Below, one piece after another: positions 4,475 to 14,322 of a stretch of 64,000 bases of DNA. The notes beneath the pieces are model-generated. The model was not told the DNA's origin and searched no databases. It was given only the letters and a program-made list of their open reading frames with translations. The translations under genes and the position numbers were made by a program. The first letter of the stretch is position 1. Each line of letters opens with the position of its first letter. The stretch is from Catenaria anguillulae PL171. Lineage: Eukaryota > Blastocladiomycota > Blastocladiomycetes > Blastocladiales > Catenariaceae. The stretch lies in the NCBI GenBank assembly GCA_002102555.1, contig MCFL01000055.1, positions 62,001-126,000 on the forward strand, written 5' to 3'.

Positions 4475-4920
4475 ATTTTTCTCTTTCTTGTTGTTAAGTA
4501 TGTCACGTTCTGTACCTTTTCTATTGTTTGGTGATTGCGCTTGTTGGCGTGAGGTTTGTAGGCTCCTTTTTTCTTGTCCGCCGCTTTCAGTCCTCATTTC
4601 CGAAGGTTCCCTTGTTGATTTTTTGTCCCATCGTCGTAGACAAGTGTTTTGTTTCCATAGAATGATTGCATTCGAGCGACAGCTCGCTGTTGTGCTCCCC
4701 ACATTGTCGATTCGACCAGGGTCAGTCGCGGGGCGGTCGTGTTCGGACAAGACGCAAGAGCAACGATGCAGCAAGAAGGCACTCGAATCGAGTCGACTCG
4801 TCCAAGATCAGTTTATGCAATCAACTGCATGTGACCTTTCATTTGAATCGGTATAGGCATCGAGACCGGCATCATCGGATAGATCCGCACAGTGGTGATA
4901 GCAATCACCACCAATGCACC
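4475..4920. other. Intergenic, no gene seen
   Basis: This 446-base gap lies between the subtilase-like gene and the first 7TM gene, both on the + strand. It should hold the 3' end of one and the promoter of the other. I see no RNA gene, repeat or conserved reading frame. Confidence 0.5.
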
Positions 4921-6453
4921 ATGTCCCTTTGGTCACGCACAACGATCCTTGTCATTCTTGTGACATCCCTTCCGCTTTCTGGCTACCTGTTCCTTGTGTC
5001 ATGCATTCACTTGTACAAGTCTGGATCGCGATACATAGCAAGCAATGCAGGCACCTCCACTCCCACGTCTTCACTTGCCGGTGGCTCCTCGTCAACAGAT
5101 GCATTGATTCCCATGGTCGTTGCTGCTGCGCAAGTCTTGGGAAGTATTGGCAACTTGATCAATCAGTCACTTTTTCTCGTTCAGGCTGTTGTGCCTGCAT
5201 CTCGTCTGCCCATTGGCGGCTGTGTTACTTGGATCTGGGTCGCAGACATTGCCTACCTCACCTTCCAACCATGTGCGACGCTCGTCATCATTCACAGAGC
5301 AACCGCCGTCATCTCTCCCAAAGCGACGGTTTGGTTCAAGAGACGAGCGACTGCCCAGATTGCATTCAGTGTCGTCTTTCTGACTGGATTCCTCCTCGTG
5401 GCCCTGTCAGTCTTCTTACGGAGAATCTGGACAGACACAAATTCAGACACTTGCGGTGCCGAATACGTCCTGAGCCTCAATTCGGCAGGCAAAATGATCT
5501 TTTTTGCACTCTACATGGCACTCGCGTTGACTTTTGCGCTCCCGCTCTTGAGCCATTTACGGCAAACCTCTGTCATTCGTGAATCCAAAGCCAAGCTGCC
5601 ATCACGCTCCGTCAGTGGCTCGGCCAAGGTGCCGAGCCCGCTTCATGTCCAGAGCGCAGACAAGCCTGGAGGTGACAAGATCATGAGTACCGATCACCGA
5701 GGGGATGGTGACGAGTACAATCGCGGAGCAACATCCTCCAACAATGGGCGGCGGAGTGCGAACATGGTGGGCACATATCAAGTGACGAGTCTGCCCGGCG
5801 ACTGGCCGCCCAACCGCGGACCTGCTGCATTGCCATTCGTCCTGCCACCAGGCTCTGGCGACGTTGGTGGGGGCGGACCTGGCACTCCATCGCCCACGCC
5901 CAACGCCTGCACCACGCCCAACCGCCCAACTCCCAAACTTCGACCAGCAACTCACAGTCCCAGCGCCCATACACTGAAAGAATCCACCGAAGACAAGCTG
6001 CGCAGACTGCTCCACGACGTGACGTTCCGAATCATGATTGCCGTGCTCGCCTACCTCGCCACGGCCACCGCCGCGCTCTTTGGCGGATTCAGTAATGCTT
6101 TCTCGGTGCAATTCACTTTCGAAAATCTTGCGGCACTGTACGCGGCCACCTTGTCGAGTGGGAATCGGTCGCGCAAACGCCCCTCGTCCAACTTGTCCCT
6201 GGCAAGCCTTGCTGCGACACCACGTGCGTTGATCCTCCCCGTGCCGGCCAAGCTGATGCGATCCGTCAGCGCCACGTCCAACCGTGCAGTGGTGGTTTTG
6301 GTTGGGGCCGTGGGCAAGAAACTGCTTGGCAAAGTGCCCAGCACTGGTTCGCAGTCAGGCAAAAGGCCCAAGCAGCTGCGGAAGGAGCGGCGGGTGCGAC
6401 TCAAACAAATGAATTGTCTCCAAGTGACGCACGTTTTCAGTCACCGACTGTGA
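4921..6453 (+). CDS. Multi-pass 7TM-like membrane protein
   Basis: A single uninterrupted frame of 510 residues. The start was chosen at the ATG just before the first hydrophobic helix (residues about 7-32). Five hydrophobic segments follow in the first 220 residues. Next comes a long polar loop of about 140 residues rich in Ser, Pro and Gly. A further helix (MIAVLAYLATATAALFGG) follows, then a short last segment containing ENLAALYAATLSS before a basic tail. The layout (N-terminal helix bundle, long loop, then late helices ending in an Asn-Ile/Leu-Ala-x-Leu-Ala-Ala motif) matches the 7TM genes at 33808-35335 and 51136-52362, whose equivalent stretches read NNIASLAAASFAAPK and NASALAAASFAAPK. 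The loop resembles the phosphorylatable third cytoplasmic loop of G-protein-coupled receptors. Ligand and coupling are unknown. Confidence 0.7.
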   Translation: MSLWSRTTILVILVTSLPLSGYLFLVSCIHLYKSGSRYIASNAGTSTPTSSLAGGSSSTDALIPMVVAAAQVLGSIGNLINQSLFLVQAVVPASRLPIGGCVTWIWVADIAYLTFQPCATLVIIHRATAVISPKATVWFKRRATAQIAFSVVFLTGFLLVALSVFLRRIWTDTNSDTCGAEYVLSLNSAGKMIFFALYMALALTFALPLLSHLRQTSVIRESKAKLPSRSVSGSAKVPSPLHVQSADKPGGDKIMSTDHRGDGDEYNRGATSSNNGRRSANMVGTYQVTSLPGDWPPNRGPAALPFVLPPGSGDVGGGGPGTPSPTPNACTTPNRPTPKLRPATHSPSAHTLKESTEDKLRRLLHDVTFRIMIAVLAYLATATAALFGGFSNAFSVQFTFENLAALYAATLSSGNRSRKRPSSNLSLASLAATPRALILPVPAKLMRSVSATSNRAVVVLVGAVGKKLLGKVPSTGSQSGKRPKQLRKERRVRLKQMNCLQVTHVFSHRL

Positions 6454-6653: not shown

Positions 6654-9600
6654 TTACCTGTGGCCAATGGCCTTCTCAACTGGACCAATGATGTTGGTCG
6701 TGTTGCCCTTCTTGGTCCTCTCGTCGCCCAAGATGCCCACCTGCGACGACGCACCAGCCGTTCCTGCCGTCCGAATCACCTGCTGCTGCTGTGCCCCTTG
6801 CCACCACCAGGCTGCTGCTTTGCCAACAACGACGATGTTCCAACAACTGACGACGTGGTTGCAATCACTTGCTTGCAAGTCTTGCACCTCAACTGCTGCT
6901 GGACGCCGTCGGCCCGTCGCCCGTGCTGCTGGCACCGCCACAGACGATGCACCACCCGGCACGTTACTGGTGGAGAGTTCAACGTTGGTTCCGGGAATGT
7001 AGACATTTTGGACTTTGGGCAGGAAAAAGATGACTTGTACGGCAACAGTCGTGAGCGACGTCAGGACGGCGCTGATGATGTATTGCACGAGCGGTTGTTG
7101 GAGAAGGAGGACAACCGTGCCGACGACGAGCAAGGTCAGCGCAATGGCATAGGTTGAAATGGCCACGTATTGTGCTTCATTGAATGCCGAGCTAACGTTC
7201 CGGGTCTAATTTGGCATGTTTTGTACAAATCAGAGTGAGTACAAGTTGACGCATGTAAAGCAAAGGGATACCTTAAGGCAAAGAAGAGCCCGCACACTGT
7301 CAAAACAACCACGGGCATTGAGCACAAGACGACCCAGTTGGTATCCATGGTCCGAATAATCCACACGGTTCCCGCAATGTTCACCGACACGAAGGGGTCG
7401 CATCCAACACAAACCAGAGTCCGCTGAGCAACATCTGGACGCCAAATGCAAGCACCGCAAACAAGTAGTATGGTGCCATTTTCCGCTTCATGATGCGCTT
7501 GGACGAAAAAATGGAGTAGACGAGATAAATCTTGGTCACCAGGCCCGAAAACATGAGCGTGTATCCGCCACCGAGCAAAAAAGCCGTTTGCATCATGCCA
7601 GACCGCCCGTCCATGTCCCATCCACTGCCAATCAAGCCGACGTGCGCGAGAATGGCACCAGCAAGAATGATGAGGCAAAATGGTGGATTGGCTGCTTTCA
7701 CGACCTTGTTGCCGCGGTTTACGAGCACAAACGCCACCAGCCCAAGAGCAAGCAGAATGCCAACAATGTTGATGACGGTGACGGCCCACTTGACGCCCGC
7801 ATCCACGGTTCCCATGGGCGGCGGTGGTGGGTCAGGGTTGGCAAACGAGACGGCAACTCCACCTCCAGGTCGGTTGGTCACGCCACTGATTGCGACAACC
7901 GCAGGCACCTTTTGCGCCGTGCAAATGGTCATGGTGGTTGCGTCCACCGTGTACGTGCAGGCCCCAGGCGTCGCCGATTGGTTGAATGAAACGAGCGCAT
8001 GGGAATGCAGCTGGCCAGGCAATGACCCGTACCCGTTGGGATCCCACCGGTCCTCGTCCATGCGCCACACCCATGTCGAATTGAGTGCGCCTTGGGCCGA
8101 CAAGCCGCCAGTAAACAATACACGCCGGTCGTCGACAGTAATCGCACGCACGCGCTCGGCAGGCGGCGGGCCCGACCCACCCGACGACAACGTCGACGGC
8201 TTGTGTACTTTCCACTTGAGCGCTGCGGTGTCCAAAATGTACAGAACGTTGCTGAGCGCCGTCGCCTGTGCGCCGCCGTACATGAGCACATGTGTTGAGT
8301 TGATGGCAGCCATGGTCGCGTGTTGCAGCGCGGGCGGGACATCGCCCGTGGCCGACATGGCCGCCCATGTGCCCGCAGCCATGTCAAACCGCCACAGATC
8401 GGATTGCACAATGCCAGCGGCCGTGGTTCCGCCGTACACCCACATGGCCCTGCCGACCTGAGCATGCGCAACATTTGTGCGTGCACTTGGGCTTGTGCTT
8501 GTCGTCACCTGTGTCCATGTCCGCGTGGCCACGTCGAGTTTCCAGGTATCCCCAAGGACGGCTGCGGCCAGGTTCCCGTTGACGATTTGCGTCTGCCCGC
8601 CAAACACCCACACGGCATTTGCTTGCGCATCGTGCGCCATGGCATGAAACATGCGCCCGCTCGGCACCGTGACTCCATTGGTCGGCATCTTTTGCCACGC
8701 AAACCGGTCAAAATCCAACACCATGACGTGCTGTGGGAACTCGGCAAACTGGTTTTGCCCGCCCCACACGAGAATCTTGTTTGTCTGGGCAAGAACCACT
8801 GCGCCGTGACCTTGCATGTTGGGCAATACTTGTGACCGCTCGCCATACGGAGCCATGTCATACCACGTCTTGTTTGCCGGCGCCGCCAGTGGCTGCAAGT
8901 CGCCCGATCCGGCAAACACGCCCGTGGTGAGCAGCTTGCGCTGCAGCGACGAACGGATCAAGTTGAGGATCGTGGACCGAGGCGAATAGGTTGTTGTAGC
9001 ACACGCATCGCCCGATGCACGCAAACTGACAGTGACTTCGGTACTAAAGTTTCGCTGTGCCGTCGTGACCAGATCCGCTAGGCCGACGCCGTCGAGCGAG
9101 GCGTCAAGGGCAAGGTTGAAACCGCCGCGCTGGCCCTTTTTCACCGACTCGATGACGGTTTTCACGGCCGTGTCTGAGCGCTTGAGGGCAGAGGACAGCA
9201 GCTTGGGCGCTTCGGGGCGGTTCAGGAACGTGGTGCGCGATTCGTCAGAGTCGACGCCAATGGCCCACGCGCCTTGGGCGGCGGCTCTGAGAATGCCTGA
9301 GGATCCAGTGAGGCCGCCAGCCTATTTGCATTTCGTAATGATGGGGGTTAGCGCGGCAAACGACCATAACGGAATTATACCGAGAATAAAGGGGACGTAC
9401 ACCAAAGATGACGTCGGCGCCATTGGCGAGCAAGCCGTCGGCAGAAAGTTGGCCCCCCGTTACGTTGGCAAACGAGGGAAAGTACGTGTTGTAGACTTCA
9501 CATGTCGGGCACAGAGATAGCACGCCGGAGAGGTAGCCGTTCACGAACCGTTTGACTGTGGGGCGGTTATACCTTGACGTTAGTTCAATTTGGCTCATGA

Positions 9601-10353
9601 TTCTGGACTAGCGAAAACAACTTGTTTCGGCAGACGTACCAGGCGGAATCGGCACACCGCCAATCACCCCGACCTTCCTGGATGACGTGAAAACTCCAGC
9701 CAATGCACCTGCGAGGTATCCTGCTTGGTCCTCGGCAAACACGACACCAATGGTATTCTTGCTTGCAGTCACGTCGACTGTGGAATCCACGACCGCAAAC
9801 ACCTTGCTGGGATACTTTGGGCCCAAGTACGCAGCGACATCGGCGTATGTGAACGATAACCCGATAAACACCTCATCATCGTTGCCCGTGACAAGTGCGT
9901 CCCACTGTGCTTGCATGGCCGAGGCAGCAATGAACCCATCGATAACGGCCGACCGGCATTGGATCGCGGACGCGCCCGAGGCTGCAGCGGCCTGCGAGGC
10001 CTCTTGGCAGCCTCTGATGGCTTCAGCGATGAATGGATTGTCGTTTGCTGTGGCCGTGACATGGTGTGGGAATGGCATGATTTGTTATCGAACACAATAC
10101 ACGTGTCGCGCGTTCACTGACCAACATCGAGAATTGATGATGAGAACGTACGGCTCGCGTTGCCAACAATGCGGACTTTGAGCTGGGCGGTTGCCAGGGA
10201 TATCAAGAGGGCAAGCACAACGATGAGCGCGAGTACCATGATCGCGGCGTGAGCTTTAGGTTTGAGTTTTGCGGAACCTGTCAATCGGCCTGGTTCACGT
10301 CTTTTGCGACTGGCGGCAGCAAGGAATGATGTGGCGGTAGCCATCGCCGACAT
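6654..10353 (-). CDS. BMP-domain / kelch / class C 7TM receptor
   Basis: Exons: 10353-10122, 10047-9640, 9555-9401, 9321-7272, and a last exon from 7205 or 7191 to 6654. The first three introns (74, 84 and 79 nt) are phase-consistent. A signal-anchor helix is followed by a periplasmic-binding fold of the bacterial basic membrane lipoprotein (BMP/Med) family, with YLAGALAGVF, NGYLSGV, ADVIFGAGGLTGSSG and WAIGVDSDE. About five kelch repeats follow (VWGGQ, WVFGGQT, WVYGGTT, LMYGGAQ, LFTGG). Then comes a 7tm_3 region of the GABA-B/Grl type, including TRNVSSAFNEAQYVAIS, followed by a low-complexity tail. A -1 frame break occurs near 7405 between helices. The acceptor at 7206 keeps the conserved RNV motif but is out of phase; 7192 is in phase. 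The BMP domain lacks its first strand motif. It is probably a plasma-membrane receptor for a small solute; the ligand cannot be inferred. Confidence 0.85.
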
Positions 10354-11354: not shown

Positions 11355-14322
11355 ATGACGACCAACACCCAACAACAGCAATGGACCGCCGCCAAGGTCC
11401 GGTCCACCTTCATCGACTACTTCAAGTCGCTGCCCGGCGGCAACGACCACATCCACGTTCCCTCGTCCAAGACGATCCCGCACGACGACCCGACGCTGCT
11501 GTTTGCCAATGCCGGCATGAACCAGTTCAAGCCCATCTTCCTGGGCACGGCCGACCCAAACTCGCCCATGGCCAAATGGCAGCGCGCCGCAAACTCGCAA
11601 AAGTGCATCCGTGCCGGCGGAAAGCACAATGACTTGGACGATGTCGGCAAGGACACGTACCATCACACCTTTTTCGAAATGTTGGGCAACTGGTCGTTTG
11701 GCAATTACTTCAAGAAGGAGGCCATCCAGTGGGCCTGGACCCTCTTGACTCAAGTCTATGGCTTGGACAAGAACCGCTTGTATGTGACCTACTTTGGCGG
11801 TGACGAAAAGCAAGGGCTCGAACCCGATACCGAGGCCAGGGACTTGTGGATCCAGATGGGATTGCCCAAGGATCGTGTGTTGCCATACGGCTGCAAGGAG
11901 AACTTCTGGGGTACCATTTTTTCTTTTTTCCTTTTACACATTTTGCCCCATGTTGCTCACTTGATTTCACACGATGAAAGAAATGGGCGACCAAGGACCA
12001 TGTGGCCCCTGCTCCGAGATCCACTACGATCTGCTCGACACTGGCCGTTTTGTGCCCGCTCTCGTCAACGCCGACGACCCGACGCTGATTGAGATCTGGA
12101 ACTTGGTGTTTATCCAATTCAACCGCGAAGCCGACGGCTCGCTTCGCCAATTGCCTGCCAAGCACGTCGACACAGGCATGGGCTTTGAGCGCCTCGTGTG
12201 TGCCCTGCAAGGCCAGCTATCCAACTACGACACGGACGTGTTCTCGCCCATCTTTGCCCGTATCCAAGAGGTGACTGGTGCTCGTCCCTATGCGGGCAAG
12301 TTGGGCAAGGACGATGCCGATGGCGTTGACATGGCCTATCGTGTGGTTGCCGATCACATTCGCACGTTGACCGTGTCCATTTCGGACGGCGGTGTCCCGT
12401 CCAATGACGGCCGCGGCTATGTGCTGCGCCGCATCTTGCGCCGTGGTGTACGGTACGCCCGGTCCGGCTTCAATGTCAACATTGGCACCTTCTTCTCGTC
12501 GCTCGTCGATGTGGTGGCCGCCTCGCTTGGCGATGCCTTCCCCGAGGTCCGCGCACATGTCGAGACGGTCAAGCAGATCTTGGACGAGGAGGAGGCGGCG
12601 TTTGCAAAGACGCTGGATCGTGGCATCAAGCTGTTTGAGTCGATTGTGGCCAAGGGCGGCGATGCCGCAAAGACCATTTCGGGCGCCGACGCTTGGAAGT
12701 TGTACGACACGTTTGGTTTCCCGATCGACCTGACGCGTTTGATGGCCGAGGAAAAGGGTCTGCAAGTGGACGATGCCGGGTTCGAGGCCGAGCAGGCAAA
12801 GGCCAAGGAGTTGTCGCGCCGTCGTAAGGATGCACAGGGCGAGCAAGTCATCAAGCTCGACGTGCACGCCATCAAGGCGGCCGAAGCCGCGGGCGTGGCA
12901 AAGACGGACGATTCTTTCAAGTACAACACGGCCACGCTCGAGGGCGCCAATGTGATTGCCGTGTACAAGAATGGCGAATGGATTCTCGACAACAAGCAGG
13001 TGGGTGTTTCCGAGGGCGAGGCCGCGGGCATCTTGTTGGACCGCACCAACTTTTACGCCGAGTCTGGCGGTCAAGAGTACGACACGGGTTCGCTGGCCGT
13101 TGACGGTGAGCTTGAGTTTGCGGTTGAAAACGTCCAAGTGTACGCCGGCTACGTCCTGCACACTGGCTTGCTCAAGTACGGCACGCTGTCGGTGGGCCAG
13201 TCGGTGACGGCGGCCTTTGACGCCCTGCGCCGGTGGCCCTTGCGCAACAACCACACGGCCACGCACGTGCTCAACCACGCCCTGCGCGCCACGCTCGGCG
13301 ATGGTGTTGACCAAAAGGGCTCGCTCGTTGCCCCGACCAAGCTCCGCTTTGATTTCTCGGCCAAGGCGCCTCTTGCGCACAAGGATCTCGTCAAGATTGA
13401 GGCCGAGGCCGCCGACACCATCAAGCGTGCCTTGCCCGTGTATGCCAAGGAAGTGCCACTTGCCCAGGCAAAGGCCATCAACGGCTTGCGTGCTGTGTTT
13501 GGTGAGGTGTACCCGGACCCCGTGCGCGTCGTGTCGATTGGCGTGGCTGTTGAGGATCTCGTTTCGGATCCCAACAATGCCAAATGGCCAGAGTACTCGA
13601 TCGAGTTGTGCGGTGGCACCCACGCGGGCACGTCGCTCGAGCTGGGCTCCTTTGCAGTGATGGAAGAGTCGGCCATTGCCAAGGGCGTGCGCCGTATTGT
13701 TGCCGTGACGGGTCCCGAGGCCATTGCCGCGCACGACGAGGCCGCGAGCTTTGTGCAAGAGCTCAACAAGCTTTCGGGCTTGTCTGGGTTTGCTTTGGGT
13801 GAGGCCGTCAAGGAGGCCGCCAAGGAAGTGGACTTGCGTGTGATGCCTGCCGCTGCCAAGATGCAGGCGCGCGAGGTTGTTGGTGCACACAAGAAGCGGT
13901 TTGATGAGTGGGACAAGGCGCAAAAGGCGGCCAAGGCCACGGCGGCTGTCGAGGAGGTCAAGGCATACTTTGCTGGCGACGAGGCAAAGAACAAGCCGTA
14001 CCTTGTCCGCGTGCTGGACGTTGGCGGCAACAACAAGGCCGTGCAGTCGGCGATCGCGGCCGTCAAGGCGACGGGAGGCGAGGGCAAGGCGGCCTTGTTT
14101 ATCACGGTGGCCGAGGGTGCCAAGGTGAGCTATGCTGCCTACGTCGACAAGTCGCTGCACGGAAAGGTGACGGCGACGCAGTGGGCCGAGGTGGTGGCCA
14201 AGGCCGTGGATGGCAAAATGGGTGGCAAGGAGGAGATGGCCCAGGGTGCTGGGTCCAAGGTGGAGGCTGTGGATGAGGCAGTCCGGTTGGCCGAGGAGTT
14301 TGCCAAGGTCAAGCTCGCCTAA
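11355..14322 (+). CDS. ALA1: Alanyl-tRNA synthetase
   Basis: Exons 11355-11910 and 11981-14322 are joined by a phase-1 intron of 70 nt, giving 965 residues, the usual eukaryotic length. It charges tRNA-Ala in the cytosol; in many fungi one gene also serves mitochondria. The class II core is complete: motif 1 region [11 protein letters not shown] (residues about 50-60), [14 protein letters not shown] (103-116), and [15 protein letters not shown] just after the intron. The editing domain carries [14 protein letters not shown], and its metal-binding CGGTHAGTS begins at residue 729. The C-terminal C-Ala domain is present. The N-terminus (TTNTQQQQW) shows no obvious mitochondrial presequence, and an upstream alternative start was not found. 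The frame is intact throughout, unlike several neighbours. Confidence 0.97.

Follow-up and report, generated by a model that had tools for sequence, protein, structure and literature searches.

We examined a 64,000-nucleotide stretch of the Catenaria anguillulae PL171 genome (hereafter the window; contig 409, bases 62001-126000) and found that a gene on its minus strand combines a BMP-type Venus-flytrap domain, a kelch propeller, and a class C seven-transmembrane (7TM) domain. This is a conserved new form of class C receptor, and its most surprising part is an ectodomain that it has in common with receptor cyclases. We read the product as a class C G-protein-coupled receptor (GPCR) in which a BMP flytrap and then a six-bladed kelch propeller would bind a nucleoside-type ligand and relay the event to the 7TM domain for G-protein signaling, and we give this reading a probability of about 0.5. 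Computation established the domain order, its conservation in zoosporic fungi and Corallochytrium, the propeller and PnrA-like folds in the model of a paralogue, the retained pocket residues, and the ectodomain common to the cyclase receptors. By splice reading, the gene runs 10353→6654 in five exons, with these parts:

10122..10353, minus strand: exon 1, with the start codon, a long basic N-terminus, and a hydrophobic signal peptide or anchor at residues ~30-64 (from the spliced frame and hydropathy)
10048..10121, minus strand: intron 1, GT..AG, joining ...SILDV to ANDNPF..., the latter aligning with the starts of relatives
9640..10047, minus strand: exon 2, BMP lobe 1
9556..9639, minus strand: intron 2, GTACGT..ACAG, giving the same PIPP|VKRFVNGY continuity as in P0003 and P0004
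9401..9555, minus strand: exon 3, BMP
9322..9400, minus strand: intron 3, from the spliced frame
7272..9321, minus strand: exon 4, the C-terminal part of BMP, the entire kelch propeller, and TM1-TM5, with frame breaks near 7395 and 7275
7206..7271, minus strand: intron 4; paralogues L040 and L042 likewise break between TM5 and the TRxVxxxFNE stretch
6654..7205, minus strand: exon 5 as first drawn, with TM6-TM7 (to ~7008)
9073..10122, minus strand: BMP (PF02608) Venus-flytrap, Pfam residues 78-348, spanning introns 1-3
7834..8880, minus strand: kelch propeller, including a closing blade with two conserved cysteines; limits carried by eye from P0003 residues 375-722
7008..7800, minus strand: class C 7TM domain (7tm_3), spanning intron 4, its frame broken twice
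6869..6892, minus strand: cytoplasmic tail motif LRCKTCKQ, in a frame different from that of TM7

The protein of exons 1-4, up to the frame break, matched the Pfam profiles Bmp (3.4e-32), Kelch_KLHDC2 (5.9e-54), and 7tm_3 (5.3e-19). For 7tm_3, TM1-4 scored 69.3 bits (cut-off 33.5), and exon 5 covered profile positions 187-251 at 1.3e-6 and 28.7 bits, alone under the cut-off. A sequence-only reading of this DNA had proposed that BMP, kelch, and 7tm_3 parts lie within one gene, and named as refutation a profile search that finds no BMP fold or RNA-seq that assigns the parts to separate transcripts. The PF02608 match of the spliced protein and a paralogue whose single open frame covers BMP, kelch, and TM1-5 (described below) agree with its architecture; that reading did not mention the two frame breaks in the 7TM part. 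The annotated protein P0004 (hypothetical protein BCR44DRAFT_1260556, Catenaria anguillulae PL171) is identical to the spliced window protein over 834 residues, from ANDNPF to the first frame break, where it ends truncated; its first ten residues are translated from the end of intron 1.

Genome-wide scans (41.07 Mb, 457 contigs) showed that the architecture is a gene family and not a single oddity. There were 13 Bmp matches at 11 places, all 11 of which had kelch and then 7tm_3 on the same strand. Two of these places are 95.6-96.8% identical to another of them over nearly the whole fetched stretch; if these near-copies are read as alleles, the loci number nine, with five on contig C112. All 10 fetched paralogue regions (L039-L048) aligned to portions of the BMP, kelch, and 7TM domains of the window protein, and among the 53 kelch matches in the genome the top eight all belong to the family. 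In L040, one open reading frame (ORF) of 907 amino acids runs from inside BMP through kelch to TM5, with Pfam Bmp, kelch, and 7tm_3 matches, so the domain order is independent of splicing. Separate kelch and 7tm_3 genes do adjoin elsewhere in the genome (L049/L050), as a false joining of adjacent BMP, kelch, and 7TM genes would presuppose, but such an artefact is exceedingly improbable: it is refuted at the ORF level by the uninterrupted frame of L040, and gene models of other species have the same fusion.

Kelch with 7TM but without BMP was sought by comparing match lists by eye, within about 4 kb. Two candidates were rejected: C68/C177 comprises two adjacent genes, a kelch gene and a receptor with its own hydrophobic N-terminus, and in C101 kelch sits 3' of the 7TM. 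The SBP_bac_8-like ectodomain of the C68/C177 receptor scored 23.7 bits, below the cut-off. At L050:1069-6110, and in its near-copy L049, a kelch gene lies directly upstream of a separate 7tm_3 receptor whose ectodomain is weakly SBP_bac_8-like.

The 7TM domain is of class C by profile. Intact relatives matched nearly the full 7tm_3 profile (104.7 bits for P0010 and 145.5 bits for P0007), the model of paralogue P0003 has seven long helices at 735-981 after a large ectodomain, and the best solved 7TM sequence matches were GABA-B receptors (9jr0, 7ca3). The fold search returned no 7TM rows among the 50 shown, which BMP and kelch domains filled. With E allowed up to 0.1, the window protein did not match the guanylyl cyclase domain PF00211. 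PF00003 gave at least 150 exon-level 7tm_3 matches in the genome (169 candidates, of which 150 were scored, each exon and near-copy being counted separately), a very large class C set for a fungus; with class C receptors so numerous, BMP-kelch-7TM proteins form one branch of them. In the 7TM tree, nine fungal BMP-kelch rows (Blastocladiomycota and a chytrid) formed one clade (90/94) against 15 other Catenaria class C rows, and Corallochytrium was unplaced. The tree took 16 of the loci L009-L038, which are the top 30 among the 150 matches, leaving out 6 near-duplicates, 8 pieces shorter than 170 residues, P0011, and P0001. One clade implies that the fusion dates back at least to the divergence of these fungal phyla, barring transfer, and an older origin is likely.

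We next consider relatives outside Catenaria, which came from three database searches, each scoring ~8000 candidates sharing most words, so that counts are lower bounds. At least 14 distinct BMP-kelch proteins were found (precomputed Pfam). At least 10 have 7tm_3: Catenaria P0003 and P0004; Allomyces P0005, P0006, and P0114; Blastocladiella P0010 and P0011; Phlyctochytrium P0048 and P0049; and P0007 of the holozoan Corallochytrium. The domain order that the sequence-only reading had suggested seeking in blastocladiomycetes and chytrids thus occurs in Allomyces, Blastocladiella, and Phlyctochytrium. At least three others carry kinase-like and guanylate-cyclase domains (P0030, P0055, labeled Nk52, and P0031, labeled Opistho-2), and the metagenomic P0109 has neither 7tm_3 nor cyclase, shows one TM-like stretch by eye, and matched no Pfam family besides BMP and kelch-type models. 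Pfam scans gave the same domain order for P0007, P0010, P0030, P0031, P0048, and P0109; for the remaining relatives, including P0055 and P0114, whose length kept them out of the scans, the order was taken from the alignment. We take Clim to be Corallochytrium limacisporum, Nk52 to be Chromosphaera perkinsii, and Opistho-2 to be Pigoraptor chileana.

The Nk52 and Opistho-2 proteins, from two holozoan data sets, have the ectodomain, cysteine pairs, and closing blade of the fungal 7TM receptors, and kinase-like and cyclase domains replace the 7TM, with one TM stretch by eye. A profile of the propeller end, a stretch in the closing blade according to fold alignments, was built from 10 fungal 7TM proteins only. 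It matched the cyclase proteins where the propeller end should lie (P0031, 4.8e-16; P0030, 2.9e-9; P0055, 1.3e-7) and Corallochytrium at only 0.053; as controls, the best bacterial BMP protein reached 0.2 and the best of 1000 shuffled proteins 0.26, and the other kelch proteins P0008 and P0009 were not in the best 14 rows. On this sequence evidence, the BMP-kelch ectodomains of 7TM receptors and of receptor guanylyl cyclases are homologous. The BMP-kelch linker was rejected as a private marker, because its fungal profile matched the ends of bacterial BMPs at 5.4e-6, ahead of the cyclase proteins, whose best value was 2.7e-4. An ectodomain tree of 15 rows resolved the fungal groups and not the deep order: the three cyclase rows formed one group (74/83), the 7TM rows did not, and only 4% of bootstrap trees had a branch that set all 7TM rows apart. 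We therefore dropped any ordering of the 7TM and cyclase forms.

The flytrap itself points to a ligand class. All seven nucleoside-pocket residues of bacterial BMPs, mapped through PnrA and Lbp alignments and not BmpA itself, are kept in the window protein (F83, D165, F217, F242, V288, D289, and K312), from which a nucleoside-type ligand is predicted, and the predicted structure of P0003 has a PnrA-like fold by fold search. From fungi to holozoans, most proteins retain the stacking aromatics and the polar Asp/Lys residues. The flytrap also has two cysteine pairs. The pair in lobe 1 is conserved in 10 of the 10 rows having the region, and among 97 bacterial BMP rows (80 loci) cysteine occurred at its first site in 0 of 29 and at its second in 0 of 27 listed of the 28 with a letter. 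The lobe 2 pair (C-x2-C at normal spacing) is present in 13 of 15 rows, being absent in Phlyctochytrium; its sites are cysteine in 8 and 9 of 95 bacterial rows. P0001, whose N-terminus is not coding there, was excluded from the cysteine counts.

In the P0003 model, the kelch part folds as a propeller whose repeats close up with six blades, and the two closing-blade cysteines are found in 14 of 15 rows, P0109 lacking them. Between the signal sequence and TM1, hydropathy gave no hydrophobic stretch in the window protein or P0003 (P0010 has one weak stretch, 686-704), so the propeller should be extracellular. NCD3G was not among the Pfam matches between flytrap and 7TM at E up to 0.1; kelch sits there instead. 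Kelch propellers often bind peptides or proteins, and the nearest solved folds, LZTR1 and KLHDC2, both have protein or peptide partners, which would suit a propeller that is the main ligand or adhesion surface, with the flytrap as co-sensor or scaffold. We consider this unlikely, as the conserved functional site that we found is the flytrap pocket, and no conserved site was identified on the top face of the propeller, for which no systematic search was made.

Both the ligand and the signaling are predictions. The flytrap would close on a nucleoside or a related ring compound. The propeller would stand outside the cell, ahead of a Pro-rich stretch and TM1, where its own cysteine pair may brace it, and would pass or space flytrap closure to the 7TM domain in the manner of the cysteine-rich domain of mGlu-type receptors. 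The 7TM domain would then activate G proteins for zoospore chemotaxis or for finding food or hosts, and the multiple Catenaria loci would widen the range of ligands. In class C signaling, flytrap closure rearranges the dimer and is passed to the 7TM, through a cysteine-rich module in mGlu-type receptors, and receptor cyclases are driven by rearrangement of ectodomain dimers. A homologous unit on a cyclase receptor fits a relay that would be indifferent to what lies below the membrane.

Several observations weigh against this reading. Among the pocket positions, Y or L replaces F151 in 7 of 15 rows, one Allomyces protein has L for F176, and Corallochytrium has G for D225. The N-lobe around the first stacking Phe is otherwise little like the bacterial proteins, so base specificity, or all nucleoside binding, may be lost. 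The domain orientation of the P0003 model is unreliable (pTM 0.42), with residues 325-390, the BMP-kelch link, mostly at pLDDT <50. Glycosylation sequons in the propeller were no more numerous than in shuffles, although some positions are conserved, and we dropped sequon excess as proof of topology. The N-lobe loop, which differs from that of bacteria, also suits a receptor of the same build whose flytrap has lost nucleosides and senses another small molecule (folate- or pterin-like, an amino acid, or a host metabolite). Substrate-binding domains often switch ligand, and a class C flytrap receptor, fAR1, binds folate and LPS, according to the text of PMC5969738. The retention of the stacking aromatics and polar Asp/Lys in fungi and holozoans argues the other way, and we regard a switched ligand as possible, though tentative.

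Next, we asked where the BMP domain came from. Prokaryotic BMPs were scanned with patterns drawn from these eukaryotic sequences, and 80 loci were kept of at least 374 confirmed. Among the matches listed, the nearest were Chloroflexota by record title (71 of the 80 loci kept). Of the 95 bacterial rows, 76 carry a GVD.DE..TTF-type stretch, as do 12 of the 15 eukaryotic ones. The BMPs of BMP-kelch proteins grouped apart from bacteria (77/90) with 16 bacterial rows, the remainder of 130 domains after similar ones were dropped; with 95 bacterial rows the support was only 39, and in the midpoint-rooted drawing P0109 stood at the base of the bacterial side. No bacterial BMP-kelch fusion appeared among 106 database matches, in which the 11 with kelch (precomputed Pfam) were all eukaryotic save the unassigned P0109. 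In the flanks of the 80 loci (at most 3 kb per side, ORFs of at least 60 amino acids), kelch occurred at two, as separate genes. These two loci, L074:147-3693 and L078:119-3693, come from two Chloroflexota genomes whose BMPs are near-identical, and in each a pair of separate kelch genes stands immediately before a BMP gene on the same strand. Such neighbors may be a source of the BMP-kelch pairing or a parallel to it; their BMPs did not fall beside the eukaryotic rows in the BMP tree. Elsewhere, the Anaerolineales protein P0112 joins many WD40-like repeats (precomputed Pfam, by eye) to a C-terminal BMP, a bacterial propeller-BMP joining, and Chloroflexus-type proteins have two tandem BMP domains (P0012-P0017, L060-L062, L064, and L065). 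We somewhat favor the view that BMP-kelch is one ancient opisthokont sensor cassette, the product of a single joining of a propeller to a Chloroflexota-type nucleoside-binding protein, braced by added cysteine pairs. It would have moved between two unrelated transducers, 7TM receptors (fungi, Corallochytrium) and receptor guanylyl cyclases (Ichthyosporea, Filasterea), and would be able to drive either.

The state of the window copy itself is a separate matter. Compared with P0003, L040, L042, and L046, its frame shifts twice, once in the loop ahead of TM5 (near 7395) and once a little ahead of intron 4 (near 7275), whereas the 7TM is unbroken in relatives such as P0010 and L040 is unbroken as far as TM5. 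The breaks are either assembly error or decay. A decaying gene, with breaks in the 7TM part giving a truncated protein, is a real prospect only a little short of even: besides the two breaks, the tail motif lies in yet another frame from TM7, and annotated P0004 ends at the first break. Paralogue L042, however, has the same tail relation, the preceding ~2.7 kb of coding sequence is without stop or break, and indel errors in a long-read assembly, which we take the Catenaria assembly to be, would appear identical. The frame from ~7008 to 6654 probably does not encode the real C-terminus. The CxxC tail motif is LRCKYCKQ in P0003, P0005, P0006, P0010, and P0114, VRCKYCRQ in P0011, and LRCKTCKQ in the window, with a CCRVCMQ-like stretch at its place in Phlyctochytrium; it may perhaps bind metal. 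Tail to tail with the receptor gene, a plus-strand ORF at 4666-6453 has several hydrophobic stretches by eye and matched no Pfam family at 1e-3. Long plus-strand ORFs at ~11355-14322 resemble alanyl-tRNA synthetase and may encode one.

Finally, we compared the receptor with known systems. PnrA, BmpA, BmpD, and Lbp have the fold and the seven pocket residues in common with the window protein, and are free substrate-binding proteins of bacterial ABC importers, whereas the window BMP is fused to kelch and 7TM in a eukaryote. BMP in class C receptors of Allomyces and Dictyostelium is already published, and kelch between BMP and 7TM apparently is not. In the main text of PMC3251606 (Krishnan et al. 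2012), BMP is reported in AMAG_08984, AMAG_12053, and 13 D. discoideum receptors, and in that of the social-amoeba study PMC10445921 in Grl clades 2-7; the word kelch is absent from both main texts. The claim of the sequence-only reading that BMP occurs with 7tm_3 in Dictyostelium Grl proteins therefore stands; judging by the published texts, which mention no kelch, these proteins may differ from the window receptor in lacking it. The direct relatives Allomyces macrogynus AMAG_12053 and AMAG_08984 were among the glutamate-family receptors with BMP in 2012 (PMC3251606); in our analysis these two (P0006 and P0114) have BMP, kelch, and 7tm_3, the kelch part going unmentioned in that text. A 2025 eLife survey of holozoan GPCRs that sampled Corallochytrium (PMC12716839) does not use the word in its text, and a legend states that non-metazoan receptors hold diverse other domains. 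In open-access full text, we found no published kelch with 7tm_3 or with PF02608, in line with the earlier remark that kelch between ligand domain and membrane is unusual, and the one paper retrieved for ichthyosporean or filasterean receptor guanylate cyclases does not use the word kelch; kelch with class C GPCR gave only work that looks unrelated by title, and none of the titles listed concerned the fusion.

The best-known class C layout is a flytrap, a cysteine-rich relay, and a 7TM domain, and here a propeller takes the place of the relay. GABA-B receptors have an ANF-type flytrap, unlike the BMP of the window receptor, and to our knowledge no propeller; the text of PMC12716839 describes them as lacking NCD3G, which was not found in the window receptor either. 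The mGlu, CaSR, and T1R receptors have the layout of flytrap, intermediate extracellular module, and class C 7TM in common with it, with an ANF-type flytrap and cysteine-rich NCD3G (per the same text) where the window receptor has BMP and kelch. The receptor thus offers a natural experiment on passing flytrap closure through the membrane and a concrete candidate ligand class for orphan receptors of zoosporic fungi, and it suggests that GPCRs and receptor cyclases exchanged an ectodomain early in the history of fungal and animal relatives. The nearest functional precedent that we found is Dictyostelium fAR1, described in the text of PMC5969738 as a class C flytrap receptor for folate chemotaxis.
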